Origin: Streptosporangium sp. NBC_01495
GTDB taxonomy: Bacteria > Actinomycetota > Actinomycetes > Streptosporangiales > Streptosporangiaceae
Assembly (NCBI RefSeq): GCF_036250735.1
Contig: NZ_CP109430.1
Coordinates: forward strand, 1,240,001 to 1,304,000
Length of the DNA: 64,000 bases
Direction: 5' to 3'
The notes below the pieces were generated by a model that was given only the letters and a program-made list of their open reading frames with translations, was not told the DNA's origin and made no database searches. Below, in pieces: positions 33,284-38,717 of the stretch. The translations under genes and the position numbers were made by a program. The number at the start of each line of letters is the position of its first letter. Position 1 is the stretch's first letter.

Positions 33284-33731
33284 GGCCCCTGAGCGGGCGG
33301 GTGACCGACATCTCACCCGACTGTTTCCGGGGCCTTGAGTGGACGGGGGCGATACCCCGTCCGGATGTTCCCGAGATCTTGAGTGGACGGGGGCCGACAT
33401 CTCACCCGGCCCGTTTCCGAGGTGAACCGAGACACCCCGTCCAGCCCCTCCTGAGGCCCCCGAGCGGCTGCGTGCCCCACGACCTCGGTACATGTGGCCC
33501 GCCGACCGCTATGTATCGTCCGCCTGCCTTGGGAGCTTTAAAGCTCTAACTGGCCGCATCGGATGAGACATGGTCACCAGGGTGCGCATCTCACCGGATG
33601 TGGCATGAAGTGGCGCGTCGGTACGGACATCCGGCGGTCGATGTCCCATCCTGGTGGAATACCCGGTCATGATCTTGCGGGGGGACCCGGCCGGGCCGCT
33701 CGCCGTCCCCGCGGCGCTTTCGGGGGGAAGC
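33284..33731. other. 448-bp region with degenerate direct repeats and a palindrome
   Basis: CTTGAGTGGACGGGGG occurs at 33334 and 33378, and CCGACATCTCACCCG occurs at 33305 and 33394, showing an intergenic repeat of about 44 and 89 bp. A 14-bp perfect palindrome GAGCTTTAAAGCTC lies at 33533-33546, possibly an operator for the deacetylase gene. No gene is supported. Confidence 0.55.
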
Positions 33732-34685
33732 ATGCGGGTGTGGCGGGTGTGGCGGGTGTGGGTCGTGCCGGTGGCGTTGCTGTTCGCGCTCTGGGGGTGC
33801 ACCTCCCCGATCGCCCTGGTGGGATCGGTGGAACCGGCGACCGTGGCGTCCCCCCTCTTCGCGGGGCACGCCGGGTTCGAGAAACCCGCGGTGCCCGGCG
33901 GACCCGTACCCGCCGCGCCCGGGGCTCCTGCGGCGCCCGCCCCCACCCCTGCCCCCCTTCCCGTCCCCACCCCTACCGCCGTTCCCGGGCCCGGGCCCGG
34001 CGCGGGGCGGCCGCACTGGGCGTGGGACGATCTTCCCGTCTCTCCACGGGCGCGCCGGATCGACTGCGAGCGGATCAAGTGCGTGGCGCTCACCTTCGAC
34101 GACGGGCCGGGGGCTTACACCGGGCCACTGCTCGACATCCTCGCCAGGCACCGGGCCAGGGCGACGTTCTTCGTCGTCGGGCGCATGGTCTCCGAGGACG
34201 GCGGGAGCACCCTTCGCAGGATGGTGGCCGAGGGGCACGAGCTGGGCAACCACACCTGGGACCACCCGCAGCTGCCCGCGCTGTCGCAGGACGGGATCAG
34301 GGAGGAACTGGGCCGTACCCAGTGGCTCGTCAAGCAGGTGACCGGGATCACGATGATCCTCATGCGCCCGCCGTACGGGTTGACCGACTCCAGGGTCGCC
34401 GCCGAGAGCCGCCAGCTGGGGCTCGCGCAGATCATGTGGGACGTCGACACGCTCGACTGGCGCGACCAGGACCCCTCGCTCGTCGCCCAGCGCGCGACCG
34501 AGGCCGGGCCGGGCTCCATCGTGCTGATGCACGACATCCACGCCTCCACGGTCCAGGCCGTCCCCCGGATGCTGGACGACTTCGCCGCCAGGGGCTACAG
34601 GTTCGTGACGCTGTCCGAGCTGTACGGTGGGCGCCCCGCGCCGGGGAGGAAGCACTACGGCAGCCCGTGGCGCCTACGCCGCTGA
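33732..34685 (+). CDS. polysaccharide deacetylase (NodB-domain) lipoprotein
   Basis: A 317-aa cell-surface carbohydrate esterase family 4 protein, likely deacetylating peptidoglycan or another surface glycan. Start at 33732 (GGGGGGAAG upstream) gives a signal peptide and lipobox LWGC. A Pro/Ala linker follows, then the NodB domain with TFDDGP (catalytic base Asp and metal Asp), NHTWDHP (HxxxH metal ligands), RPPYG, DVDTLDW and VLMHDIH. All catalytic motifs are intact. Codons upstream of 33732 are open but unlikely to be used. Confidence 0.88.
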   Translation: MRVWRVWRVWVVPVALLFALWGCTSPIALVGSVEPATVASPLFAGHAGFEKPAVPGGPVPAAPGAPAAPAPTPAPLPVPTPTAVPGPGPGAGRPHWAWDDLPVSPRARRIDCERIKCVALTFDDGPGAYTGPLLDILARHRARATFFVVGRMVSEDGGSTLRRMVAEGHELGNHTWDHPQLPALSQDGIREELGRTQWLVKQVTGITMILMRPPYGLTDSRVAAESRQLGLAQIMWDVDTLDWRDQDPSLVAQRATEAGPGSIVLMHDIHASTVQAVPRMLDDFAARGYRFVTLSELYGGRPAPGRKHYGSPWRLRR

Positions 34686-34779
34686 CGGGGAGCCAGGCGG
34701 AGGGAGCGGTGGAAGGCCCGGCGGAAGAGGCGTGAACCTTCCGTGCCCGTTCCCCGACTGTCCGGGGCGAGGAGGCAGG

Positions 34780-34793
34780 GTGACCAGACTTAT
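34780..34793 (+). pseudogene. detached first codons of the interrupted ECF sigma gene
   Basis: GAGGAGG (34769-34775) precedes GTG at 34780, and four and two-thirds codons (MTRLI) run to the left junction TTAT. Joined to 36341 they continue in frame into the ECF sigma factor (MTRLIDELLVVRCGLGE). The TnpB element thus appears to separate the native start from the gene body. Confidence 0.7.
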
Positions 34794-34839
34794 CAGAGGG
34801 TGTAGGCCCCGTCCTTTAGGGCGGGGTAGGCCCGGCATG

Positions 34840-35052
34840 TCACAGGAAGTTGATCACTTCGAGTTCGTCTTGTCCTGGTCTGCGGATCAGTATGGTTCCG
34901 CCTTCGGTGCGGAGTTGCTCCAGGTAGGCGTACACCTGGAGTGCCCGGTTGACGGTGTCGGTCTTGGTGTCGCCGGTCAGTTCGGCGCCTTTGGCGAGGG
35001 CTTCCGCGCCGCGCTGGGTCAGGTTCACCGTCAGTCGCTCGAGAGGGCTCAT
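34840..35052 (-). CDS. ribbon-helix-helix-like small protein inside the TnpB element
   Basis: A 70-aa protein, MSPLERLTVNLTQRGAEALA then KGAELTGDTKTDTVNRALQVYAYLEQL, with the short N-terminal beta strand (RLTVNLT) and two helices of an RHH/MetJ-Arc DNA-binding fold. It is transcribed away from tnpB with 48 bp between start codons and lies inside the element's left end. It could repress the shared promoter or act as an antitoxin-like partner; no toxin gene is adjacent. ATG 35052 gives the compact domain. Confidence 0.65.
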   Translation of the reverse strand: MSPLERLTVNLTQRGAEALAKGAELTGDTKTDTVNRALQVYAYLEQLRTEGGTILIRRPGQDELEVINFL

Positions 35053-35100
35053 ACGCACATCGTACATACGCCACACGCATTCTTCGGTATCGTTGACCTC

Positions 35101-36294
35101 ATGCGGCTCAGGTACAACTTCCGCCTCCACCCGTCGCCGGGGCAGCGCCAAGCGCTGGCCAGAGCGTTCGGGTGCGCACGGACGGTGTACAACGACGGAC
35201 TGCGCATCAGGCAAGAAGCCCACGCGGGCGGCTTGCCGTACATCAAGGACACCGACCTGCAGAAGGCCGTGATCACGGCGGCGAAGAAGAGGCCGGACCG
35301 GGCATGGCTGGGTGAGGTGTCCTCGGTCGTGCTGGTGCAGGCGCTCGGCGACCTGCACGTGGCGTTCCGCACCTTCTTCGCCTCGGTCACCGGAAAACGT
35401 AAGGGCCGCAAGATCGCCGCGCCGCGATTTCGGTCCCGGAAGGATTCGCGGCAGGCGATCCGGCTGACCCGCAACGGGTTCTCGGTCCGCCCGAACGGGC
35501 GCCTGTACGTGGCCAAGGTCGGCGAGATCGAGGTGGTCTGGTCGCGGGAACTACCGTCTGAGCCGTCGTCGGTGACGGTGGTCAAGGACTCGGCGGGCCG
35601 CTACTTCGCGTCGTTCGTCGTCGAGACGGCGGACGAGGTGCTGCCGGAGACGGCCTCCGAGATCGGCGTCGATGTGGGTCTGACGCATTTCGCGATCACC
35701 TCGGACGGCCGAAAGGTCGCCAATCCGCGTATCCTGCGCCGCGCGGCCAAGAGACTCCGCAGGCTACAGAAGGCGCTGAGCCGAAAAGAGAAGGGGTCGG
35801 CGAACCGGGCCAAGGCCAAGCTCAAGGTCGCCAAGGCGCACGCCAGGGTGACCGACACGCGCCGCGACTTCGCCCACAAACTGTCCTCCACGTTGATCCG
35901 CGACAACCAAGCGGTCTATGTGGAGGATCTCGCCGTGTCGGGTTTGGCGCGCACGAAGCTGGCCAGGTCGGTGCACGATGCGGGTTGGTCGCAGTTCGTG
36001 AGCATGCTGGAGTACAAGGCGAGGCGGTATGGCCGCCACTTCGCCAAGATCGACCGCTGGTTTCCCTCTTCGAAGCTGTGCTCGGTGTGCGGGAGCATCG
36101 CCACCTCGATGCCGTTGAACGTCCGGTCGTGGATCTGCCCGTGCGGGGCGGTTCACGACCGGGATGTGAACGCGGCGATCAACATTCTGGCCGCCGGACG
36201 GGCGGACAGGTTAAACGCCTGTGGAGGCGATGTAAGACCACCGCTCGCGGTGGCGGACGCCCGCGAAGCAGGAACCCACCGGAGCGTCGCGTGA
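35101..36294 (+). CDS. tnpB: RNA-guided nuclease TnpB (IS605 OrfB family)
   Basis: A 397-aa transposon-encoded nuclease related to Cas12. In the family it uses an omegaRNA from the element's right end to cut DNA next to a transposon-adjacent motif. It begins MRLRYNFRLHPSPGQRQALARAFG; the RuvC acidic residues are in EIGVDVGLTHFA (Asp), VYVEDLAVSGL (Glu) and HDRDVNAAINI (Asp). A zinc ribbon CSVCG...CPCG lies before the last one. All catalytic residues are present and the frame is intact, so it may be active. The TGA overlaps a GTG that is in frame with the ECF sigma gene. Confidence 0.93.
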   Translation: MRLRYNFRLHPSPGQRQALARAFGCARTVYNDGLRIRQEAHAGGLPYIKDTDLQKAVITAAKKRPDRAWLGEVSSVVLVQALGDLHVAFRTFFASVTGKRKGRKIAAPRFRSRKDSRQAIRLTRNGFSVRPNGRLYVAKVGEIEVVWSRELPSEPSSVTVVKDSAGRYFASFVVETADEVLPETASEIGVDVGLTHFAITSDGRKVANPRILRRAAKRLRRLQKALSRKEKGSANRAKAKLKVAKAHARVTDTRRDFAHKLSSTLIRDNQAVYVEDLAVSGLARTKLARSVHDAGWSQFVSMLEYKARRYGRHFAKIDRWFPSSKLCSVCGSIATSMPLNVRSWICPCGAVHDRDVNAAINILAAGRADRLNACGGDVRPPLAVADAREAGTHRSVA

Positions 36295-36340
36295 GCGGCG
36301 CGGGAGGAATCCCCGGCCTTCAGGCCGAGGAGGACGTCAA
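36200..36340 (+). ncRNA. predicted omegaRNA of the TnpB element (scaffold part)
   Basis: By analogy with characterised TnpB systems the omegaRNA spans the 3' end of tnpB and the right end, with its guide immediately outside the element (36341-36360). Visible structure: CCACCG-CTCG-CGGTGG (36238-36253) and CGGCC-TTCA-GGCCG (36314-36327). The predicted guide begins TGACGAACTGCTGG, which lies next to TTAT in the reconstructed empty site. The 5' boundary is approximate. Confidence 0.6.
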
Positions 36341-36863
36341 TGACGAACTGCTGGTGGTCCGGTGCGGGCTCGGCGAGCGTGAGGCGTTCGCGGAGCTGGT
36401 GAGGGCCTGGCACGACCCGGTGTGGAACTACGTACGGCGCATGCTGGGGCCCTCGCGGGCCGACGACGTGGCCCAGGAGGTCTGGGTGGCCGTGGTGCGC
36501 GGGCTGCCGCACCTGAAGGAGCCGGGCAGGTTCGTGCCCTGGCTGTTCACGATCGCCAGGCGCGCGGTGGCCGACCGGCTCCGCGAGGAGTACGCCAGGC
36601 CCGAGATCCCGATGGAGGAGGAGCGGGCGTCCGCCGATCCCGGCGATTTCGCCGATGCCCTGGTGGACCGCGCCGACCTGTTCGCGGGCCTGGCGGAGCT
36701 GCCGGTCAGGGAGCGGGAGGTCCTCGTGCTGTTCTACCTGCAGGACCTCTCCCTGGAGGACTGCGCGCAGGTCTGCGCCGTCCCCGTCGGCACGGTCAAG
36801 TCACGCCTGTCCCGCGCGCGGCGCATGCTGCGCGAACAGCTCACGGAGAAGGGATACCGATGA
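36291..36863 (+). CDS. ECF RNA polymerase sigma factor, 5' end interrupted by the TnpB element
   Basis: An ECF sigma-70 factor with intact sigma2 (HDPVWNYVRRMLGPSRADDVAQEVWVAVVRGL, FVPWLFTIARRAVADRLREE) and sigma4 (LPVREREVLVLFYLQDLSLEDCAQVCAVPVGTVKSRLSRARRML). Native codons resume at 36341; the native start is at 34780 on the other side of the element. The frame stays open through the right end, and a GTG at 36291 overlaps the tnpB stop (GTGA) with GGAG 6 nt upstream, giving a 190-aa form with 17 foreign residues. Another in-frame GTG lies at 36354. Expression is therefore possible but uncertain. Its stop overlaps the next start (ATGA). Confidence 0.72.
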   Translation: MSGAGGIPGLQAEEDVNDELLVVRCGLGEREAFAELVRAWHDPVWNYVRRMLGPSRADDVAQEVWVAVVRGLPHLKEPGRFVPWLFTIARRAVADRLREEYARPEIPMEEERASADPGDFADALVDRADLFAGLAELPVREREVLVLFYLQDLSLEDCAQVCAVPVGTVKSRLSRARRMLREQLTEKGYR

Positions 36864-37312
36864 ACCCCGATGACATGATCGGCAGGCTGTCCGGCCCGCT
36901 GTCGCTGCGCCGCCGGATCGGCAACGTCGTGGCGCTGCTCGGCGGCCTGGGTGGGGCGCTGTTCACCGGCCTGCTGTGGGCCACGGAGCCCGTCCTGCCG
37001 GGCCGTACGCACCTGGCCTTCGGCGCGCTGGTCGCGCTCGGCCTGACCTGGGCAGGTTACGGGGCCTGGGCACTGACCCGGAGGACGCCGCTGTTCGCCC
37101 TCGACCGGGTGATCGCCGCCTGGCTGGCGGTGGCGGCGACGGCCCTGCTGACGGCGGGAACGGCCGCGGTCGCGGTCGCCAGGGACACCTGGGCGGGCAC
37201 GGCGGGGGTCACCGTCGCCGCGACGCTGGCCGTGCTCGCGGTGGCCGTCCTGCTCAGGGCCCGCGCCGATCGCGCCGCCCTGCTGCGGCGCAAGCGCGAG
37301 CTCGGCGGCTGA
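36860..37312 (+). CDS. four-helix membrane protein paired with the ECF sigma factor
   Basis: A 150-aa integral membrane protein of unknown function with four hydrophobic helices (VVALLGGLGGALFTGLLW, LAFGALVALGLTWAGYGAW, and two Ala-rich ones) and a basic C-terminus. It overlaps the sigma gene by 4 nt (ATGA), so the two are co-translated. Membrane partners of ECF factors often act as anti-sigma factors, but no zinc or ASD motif is visible. Its last 59 nt overlap the convergent glycosyltransferase gene. Confidence 0.7.
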   Translation: MNPDDMIGRLSGPLSLRRRIGNVVALLGGLGGALFTGLLWATEPVLPGRTHLAFGALVALGLTWAGYGAWALTRRTPLFALDRVIAAWLAVAATALLTAGTAAVAVARDTWAGTAGVTVAATLAVLAVAVLLRARADRAALLRRKRELGG

Positions 37313-38717
37313 GGCCCGCCACGGCCAGGGCCGCCGCGAGGCAGGCCATCGGGATCGAGGGCAGCACGTAACGGTGGTCGAAGTCCAGCGCGGCGATCGG
37401 GGCGAGGAGCAGGAAGACGGCCGCCGCCCACGGCAGCAGGGCCGGGCGTCGCCGTCCGGCGGCCCCGAGGGCGCCGAGCAGCAGGAGCGCGCCGATCAGC
37501 GGGCCGTGCAGGACACCGGGGTAGGAGTACGCGCCCAGGAGGCTCCCGTACGGCTCGACCGACGACATCCCCCGGATATCGCCGTCGTACTCGCGGCGCA
37601 CCTGGTCGATCAGCGGGAAGGCGGGCAGCGGCCAGGAGCCGACGGGGAACGTGAGGGCAGGAGAGACGCGCAGGGGGTGGCGGACCGGGGTCGGCGCAAA
37701 GGTGAGGGAGGCGTCGCGGGCGACCTCGCGGAGGTAGTCCAGCGGCTGGGCGGCGATGGCGCGCAGCGCGAAGGACCTGGCCAGGTCGTTGTGGGCGAAT
37801 CGGCCTCCCGGCAACCTGTTGAGCGAGGCTCCGGCCGCCCAGACGTACTCGGACGCGGCGTCGACGACGGTGCCGTTCGGGCACAGGACCGCCTCCCTCG
37901 CCGGTGGCCTGATCACCGAGCAGTCGGCGAACGTCATCGTGCGCGCCCACAGCGCTACGCCGTCGGAGCCGCTGAGCGCGAACCGCCCGTGGTGCTGCTG
38001 GTACCAGCCCGCGTAGGCCGCGAGCGGCAGCAGCCCGGCGACGGCCAGTGCCACCACCCGTCGCCGGCCCGCCCGCCGCAGGAGCAGGTGGAGCAGGACC
38101 AGCCCGAGCAGTGGCACCGCGACCGTACGGGTGAGCCCGGCCAGTGCCAGCAGCAGGCCCGCCACGGCGACCGCCCGCGCCGACGGCCTGGCCCGCCACA
38201 TCAGCACCGTCAGGGCGGCGGTGATGAGGAAGATGAGCTGGGTGTCGGAGAGTACGGCGTGTTCGAGCCTGAGGAAGGCGGGGTTGAACAGCACGGGCAG
38301 GGTCGCCAGGGTGGCTCCCCATCCGGGAAGCGAGTGGCGGCGCAGCACCAGATAGATCATCAGACCCGTGCCGAGGCCCATGGCGTGCTGGACGCCCGCG
38401 ACGAGCTCCACGCTGTGGAAGGGCAGCAGCAGCCGCAGCAGGAAGGGGTACCCGGCCGGGTGGAACGCGCCGGAGGGCTCCAGATGGACGGCCGTGTTCA
38501 GATAGGTGAAGGAGTCGTACCAGTAGAGCTGGGCGGTGTCGTAGCCGAGCATGACGAGGCCGCGGAGCCCCGCCGCCAGGATGATCACGACGGTGAACAG
38601 CCGGTGGCCGCCGAGAGCGTCGCGGAGGGCGTCGCGGAGGGCGCGGAGCCGGTCGCGTGGACCGCTCCTTTCGGGCGGGGCGGGCAGGGTCCGGGTCCCG
38701 CCGGGTGAGGTGAGCAT
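37254..38717 (-). CDS. GT-C-fold membrane glycosyltransferase (ArnT/PMT-like)
   Basis: A 487-aa polytopic protein with about eleven hydrophobic helices. After a basic N-terminus it has GYDTAQLYWYDSFTYLNTAVHLEPSGAFHPAGYPFLLRLLLP, the first extracellular loop with the acidic residue expected of lipid-linked-sugar transferases, and later FDHRYVLPSIP, which recalls the dolichol-phosphate-mannose-type family. It would transfer a sugar from a polyprenyl phosphate to an outer-surface acceptor. Start at 38717 is chosen over 38798 because GGGGGG lies about 8 nt upstream. Substrate unknown. Confidence 0.75.
   Translation of the reverse strand: MLTSPGGTRTLPAPPERSGPRDRLRALRDALRDALGGHRLFTVVIILAAGLRGLVMLGYDTAQLYWYDSFTYLNTAVHLEPSGAFHPAGYPFLLRLLLPFHSVELVAGVQHAMGLGTGLMIYLVLRRHSLPGWGATLATLPVLFNPAFLRLEHAVLSDTQLIFLITAALTVLMWRARPSARAVAVAGLLLALAGLTRTVAVPLLGLVLLHLLLRRAGRRRVVALAVAGLLPLAAYAGWYQQHHGRFALSGSDGVALWARTMTFADCSVIRPPAREAVLCPNGTVVDAASEYVWAAGASLNRLPGGRFAHNDLARSFALRAIAAQPLDYLREVARDASLTFAPTPVRHPLRVSPALTFPVGSWPLPAFPLIDQVRREYDGDIRGMSSVEPYGSLLGAYSYPGVLHGPLIGALLLLGALGAAGRRRPALLPWAAAVFLLLAPIAALDFDHRYVLPSIPMACLAAALAVAGLSRRARACAAAGRRDRRGP

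Follow-up and report, generated by a model that had tools for sequence, protein, structure and literature searches.

The window analyzed here, a 64,000-nt stretch of the Streptosporangium sp. NBC_01495 genome, contains a complete IS605-type element without tnpA at positions 34785 to 36340 of the forward strand (1556 bp; left end CAGACTTATC..., right end ...GACGTCAA), followed by the intact body of an ECF sigma factor gene (36342 to 36863, forward strand, stop codon 36861 to 36863) that begins at native codon 3. The junctions of the element were fixed by the empty sites of orthologous loci together with an equal-length sister copy (L002, G000:C1:2946416-2947971). Within the element, tnpB (35101 to 36294, forward strand, ATG at 35101) encodes an RNA-guided endonuclease, whose sequence matches Pfam OrfB_IS605 and Cas12f1-like_TNB and NCBIfam guided_TnpB above cut-off, matches the solved TnpB chains 8bf8, 8ex9, and 8exa, and keeps the RuvC D/E/D motifs (IGVDVG, VEDLAV, and HDRDVNA). 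With Pfam Sigma70 region 2 and region 4 found in the sigma body, both gene identities given in the preliminary description were borne out. The sigma gene shares an ATGA overlap with a partner gene (36860 to 37312, forward strand), which appears by eye to encode a membrane protein and found no match in family searches against Pfam and NCBIfam.

The element shows the features of the IS200/IS605 type, with subterminal hairpins at both ends (the left-end hairpin, CCCCGTCCTTTAGGGCGGGG, was recognized by eye), a short fixed target, no target duplication, and a guided_TnpB-family TnpB with RuvC motifs. No Y1 transposase TnpA is encoded within 34785 to 36340, and the element was therefore filed under the tnpB-only (IS1341-like) class. 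It resembles other IS1341-like elements in its intact RuvC motifs, its hairpin ends, a 3' omegaRNA scaffold that extends into the flank, the lack of a target duplication, and a short adjoining target serving, here by prediction, as the TAM. It differs from them in its target, GTGAC, and in carrying an extra small ORF of 70 amino acids (34843 to 35052, reverse strand), divergent from tnpB. By eye this ORF is ribbon-helix-helix-like, and Pfam and NCBIfam searches returned no family match for it; it is 100% identical at the amino acid level in the sister copy and also adjoins a tnpB of 74% identity in another genus (L176). It is possibly an element-borne regulator. A tnpA-like ORF, recognized by eye, adjoins another tnpB copy in the same genome (L009). 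An Rfam scan of 33500 to 38500 yielded only HgcC, a chance match at 17.6 bits where the cut-off is 50, and a scan of 34600 to 36900 for consensus promoters and terminators found none.

Upstream of the element lie the parts that the sigma body lacks. An ECF-type promoter, GTGAACC-N16-CGACTGT (34732 to 34761, forward strand), is conserved upstream of the orthologues, and it is followed by a Shine-Dalgarno (SD) sequence, GAGGAGG (34769 to 34775), and a start, GTG-AC (34780 to 34784), both recognized from orthologue empty sites (L013 to L016). The native start GTG-AC is at the same time the transposon target GTGAC. Between this stranded GTG-AC and TGACGAACTGCTG lie the 1556 bp of the element. The comparison set comprised 31 sigma orthologues from the genus and family, and the gene is uninterrupted in all of them. 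Nearly all start with (A/G)TG-A(C/G)(C/T/G), codon 2 being GCA or GCC in two; the Asp-Glu-Leu-Leu codons come next in most, and an SD and a conserved promoter close to GTGAACC-N15-17-CGACTGT precede the genes. Five congeners have an in-frame stop 5 to 6 codons upstream of the sigma start, leaving no room for an alternative start there. When the flanks of the element are joined, the result, GGGTGAC|TGACGAACTG, matches the gene start in L015, as well as that in L013 with one downstream change; joining GTGAC to TGACGAA thus restores the empty site. A promoter, SD, and GTG-AC on the left, a gene body on the right, and empty sites in relatives together lead to the conclusion that the element split the sigma gene inside codon 2. 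It inserted after GTGAC (GTG-AC|T-GAC-GAA), stranding the promoter, SD, and start. Among the related loci, L084 (Streptosporangium minutum) has its right end and flank in common with L047 (G008, same genus group).

In actinobacteria, ECF sigma factors are found in autoregulated operons. The locus resembles such operons in having, in relatives, a GTGAACC/CGACTGT promoter directly upstream and in pairing the sigma gene with a small membrane partner. The promoter pattern occurs once in the 11.1 Mb genome (2 contigs), at the stranded site, and likewise once in each of seven other congeners, with the reversed control giving zero occurrences. Unlike in autoregulated ECF operons, promoter and gene are here 1.56 kb of transposon apart, and any autoregulation is putative.

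The interrupted gene has not visibly decayed. The sigma body contains no stop and no frameshift, with one private change in 84 near-invariant columns, and a three-point distance estimate puts dN/dS on the window branch at about 0.42-0.47, not clearly unlike that of its neighbours. No relaxation of the sigma body was detected by the private-change test. Such an undecayed body would fit a recent insertion or continued expression alike. In two congeners (G002 and G013), the sigma promoter and start are kept and the body is lost, apparently through independent events, and a close orthologue is missing in 10 of 16 congeners; the sigma gene is therefore dispensable in the genus. In the G002 locus (L201, G002:C12:73791-73820), the sigma start reads, after a deletion, into the last part of the partner gene; the second body-less locus is L206 (G013:C1:619355-619384).

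At the right side of the element, the tnpB stop codon (TGA, 36292 to 36294) overlaps a GTG (36291 to 36293), forming GTGA at 36291 to 36294. The sequence 5' of this GTG is CACCGGAGCGTCGC, in which GGAG (36281 to 36284) stands at a distance of 6 nt. The preliminary description had reported this overlap with its upstream GGAG, and had placed the GTG in frame with the sigma gene through the whole right end; the sequence itself confirms the former and direct translation the latter. The frame runs from GTG 36291 without a stop over 17 codons (VSGAGGIPGLQAEEDVN, 36291 to 36341, forward strand) to the sigma codon GAC at 36342 and stays open to 36863. The pair thus has the overlapping stop and start, with the downstream gene in frame, of a termination-reinitiation pair. 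The 17-residue leader would probably be flexible. Near the junction, GTG 36291 and GTG 36354 are the sole remaining canonical starts in the sigma frame, and any full-length sigma protein must therefore begin inside the element.

The same GTGA has a second role. It forms the loop of a hairpin, GCGTCGC-GTGA-GCGGCGC (36284 to 36301, forward strand), which was obtained by minimum-free-energy folding and whose loop holds both the tnpB stop and GTG 36291. A terminal right-end hairpin, CCCCGGCC-TTCA-GGCCGAGG (36309 to 36330, forward strand), marks the 3' end of the omegaRNA scaffold. In an alignment of the right ends of 19 related elements, 8 of the 14 pairs in these two hairpins show changes on both sides, compared with a shuffled mean of 2.9 and none of 500 shuffles reaching 8; when the alignment was slid by one to three columns, at most 3 pairs changed on both sides. 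The shuffle ignores relatedness, whereas the slid control retains it. Covariation is stronger in the terminal hairpin (6/9 pairs) than in the GTGA hairpin (2/5 pairs).

In 12 further elements, inserted at unrelated loci, the matching position also reads GTGA or ATGA. As related elements elsewhere carry the GTGA as a covarying hairpin loop, the overlap arises from the omegaRNA hairpin as a side effect and travels as element cargo; on the evidence of this family alignment, it is evidently not a coupling or adaptation specific to the sigma gene. The distance from the RTGA start to the element end ranges from 50 to 55 nt across elements and covers all three phases, and a fixed frame into the flank is therefore not maintained. 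At least 100 open codons extend from RTGA into the flank in 8 of 14 RTGA-bearing elements, showing that openness is cheap in GC-rich DNA. Given a gene on the same strand, a frame match such as that with sigma is expected about one time in three, and the openness of the leader frame speaks only weakly for anything beyond chance. The earlier proposal that the insertion rewired the sigma factor accordingly divides: the insertion did part the sigma gene from the promoter, SD, and start that belong to it (all 31 orthologues being uninterrupted), but a GTGA made for sigma is not supported, as it is a family omegaRNA hairpin loop at the right end of elements that differ in phase.

Two further starts, one at each junction of the element, bear on what ribosomes might do there. 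The element right end, GTCAA, closes at 36340, and the junction with the flank forms an ATG at 36340, which opens a 20-codon out-of-frame ORF (36340 to 36402, forward strand; stop TGA at 36400). This ATG follows a near-ideal SD, GAGGAGG (36327 to 36333), that is better than the GGAG of GTG 36291, making the ORF a possible decoy. The conserved element end GAGGACGTCAA can create such an ATG wherever the flank starts with TG. On the left side, the stranded sigma start opens a frame of 504 amino acids that crosses the left end and continues into tnpB (34780 to 36294, forward strand); this frame is open in the sister copy too.

The sister copy has 97.3% identity to the window element (42 differences), with no difference in the last 46 bases, and its neighbour gene is unrelated to sigma. 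GTGAC precedes all four left ends available, those of both intact copies and of the truncated copies L076 and L077, and is therefore the target and the probable TAM. The joined flanks of the sister copy give a 127-residue ORF with a GTG at the insertion point; in the relatives L195 and L196 a GTG stands at the corresponding position, and no clear SD was seen before the GTG of the sister copy. Both intact copies thus combine the GTG-AC of an apparent gene start, a left frame into tnpB, and on the right a gene frame matched to GTG 36291 or to the corresponding GTG. As an actinobacterial gene start (GTG-AC), GTGAC is plausible. The window holds 165 occurrences of it, 6 of which come through a crude filter for possible gene starts, and the placement of both intact copies at starts is therefore unusual. 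The start-codon match in both copies exceeds the expected few percent, about 3-4% by the crude count, with n = 2 and a pattern noticed post hoc, and is a lead rather than a result. That the subtype is suited to landing on gene starts, through its GTGAC target, its left frame into tnpB, and its right GTGA restart, appears quite improbable; both intact copies fit this idea, but the right-end phase varies in the wider family, two truncated copies (L076 and L077) are both intergenic, and the basis is two insertions. Were it true, one insertion rule would provide host-promoter expression of TnpB as well as survival of the interrupted gene.

The truncated left ends lie at G000:C1:552748-552838 (L076, between apparent ksgA and ispE by eye), G000:C1:6280215-6280302 (L077, between divergent genes), and G000:C1:3566870-3567040 (L075), and 299 family genomes, searched for this left end, gave no further full copy outside this genome. 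A related element (L048, G012:C1:1264293-1264434) ends 3 nt before the ATG of a long frame, and its right end may sit directly 5' of a gene start. In another copy, L069 (G000:C1:1812939-1813124), an ATGA restart is in frame with the interior of a gene that looks RidA-type by eye.

What the insertion has meant for sigma production can be read in several ways. One reading, a plain knock-out without useful sigma and with a body heading to decay, falls only slightly short of an even chance. The removal of the native start, the loss of the body in G002 and G013, and the junction SD leading to an out-of-frame ATG all argue for it, while the intact, unrelaxed ORF and the presence of an in-frame restart argue against it. 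That restart carries the rewiring raised in the earlier proposal; taken as functional, a leader-bearing sigma made by termination-reinitiation at GTG 36291 would be the working form and tnpB the first cistron of the sigma operon. Such functional rewiring seems rather unlikely to us. It would agree with the in-frame GTGA and its GGAG at 6 nt, with the conserved sigma body, with the native promoter still intact upstream of the element, and with ATGA/GTGA overlaps being a known coupling route (PMC6728339, PMC10666635); set against these are the origin of the GTGA as a family hairpin loop, possible interference from the hairpin and from omegaRNA processing, the better SD serving the out-of-frame ATG 36340, and the dispensability of the sigma gene in the genus. 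The further proposal, that a single stretch would serve at once as scaffold of the omegaRNA, as end of the transposon, and as coding sequence, is supported for any full-length sigma protein.

Initiation at the internal GTG 36354 would give a sigma without its N-terminal DELL. This codon is in frame, but it has no SD (CAATGACGAACTGCTG lies upstream), and starting there would delete residues conserved in nearly all orthologues, so we regard its use as improbable. A last reading would have TnpB turned, by exaptation, into an RNA-guided partner for sigma. TldR proteins are TnpB relatives turned transcription factors, described as TnpB-derived and RNA-guided (PMC13418256), and the locus resembles them in that a TnpB lineage adjoins a transcription-related gene. 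The adjacency of tnpB and sigma is the one feature at the locus in favour; unlike in TldR, the catalytic motifs are retained in the window TnpB, the linkage goes back to a single insertion found in 0/31 orthologues, and the sister copy adjoins an unrelated gene. The reading as an RNA-guided transcription factor was rejected for its lack of conserved linkage and its intact active-site motifs, and any exaptation of this kind is extremely improbable.

Very probably, then, the element split a dispensable ECF gene and brought the GTGA along as its own cargo, any rewiring being incidental. Two observations count against this reading, namely the undecayed sigma body and the position of both intact copies at an apparent GTG start with both frames matched. 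We infer that transcripts begun at the stranded promoter, at a tnpB promoter, or at both would pass through tnpB into the sigma body, and that the stranded GTG 34780 may yield a 504-residue TnpB fusion. Of the ribosomes that terminate at the hairpin, some may start again at GTG 36291, producing a sigma with a 17-residue leader. As termination-reinitiation at ATGA/GTGA overlaps is documented (PMC6728339, PMC10666635), low-level production of the leader-sigma is plausible, and detectable translation from GTG 36291 can be entertained, with the balance tilting somewhat against it. The arrangement is like the documented pairs in its -4 overlap and SD-like GGAG at 6 nt; unlike them, its overlap lies in an omegaRNA hairpin loop and its downstream cistron was joined by transposition. 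The overlap is also not conserved for the tnpB-sigma pair, which occurs in none of the 31 orthologous loci, the RTGA being conserved with the element instead. Two competing processes would reduce the level of leader-sigma: (i) the junction ATG 36340 would draw ribosomes into its 20-codon out-of-frame ORF, and (ii) omegaRNA processing would act on the same transcript. AmaTnpB cleaves its own mRNA 5' of the omegaRNA (PMC10278001), and if the TnpB of the window acts likewise, the sigma body would be severed from the translating tnpB. The open papers searched describe no such restart of an interrupted gene by a TnpB element. If the leader-sigma is made, the peptide to expect is IPGLQAEEDVNDELL.

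The element and the event are both of known kinds, and it is the position that is interesting. Here a TnpB element has cut an apparently autoregulated sigma gene in two right at the start codon, a clean case from nature whose empty site can be read from relatives. The locus also shows that the tnpB stop can occupy an omegaRNA hairpin loop, giving rise to by-product GTGA/ATGA overlaps that can pass for operon coupling. Should the restart be used, a single RNA would serve as omegaRNA, tnpB mRNA, and sigma mRNA, and processing by TnpB would sever its own downstream cistron.
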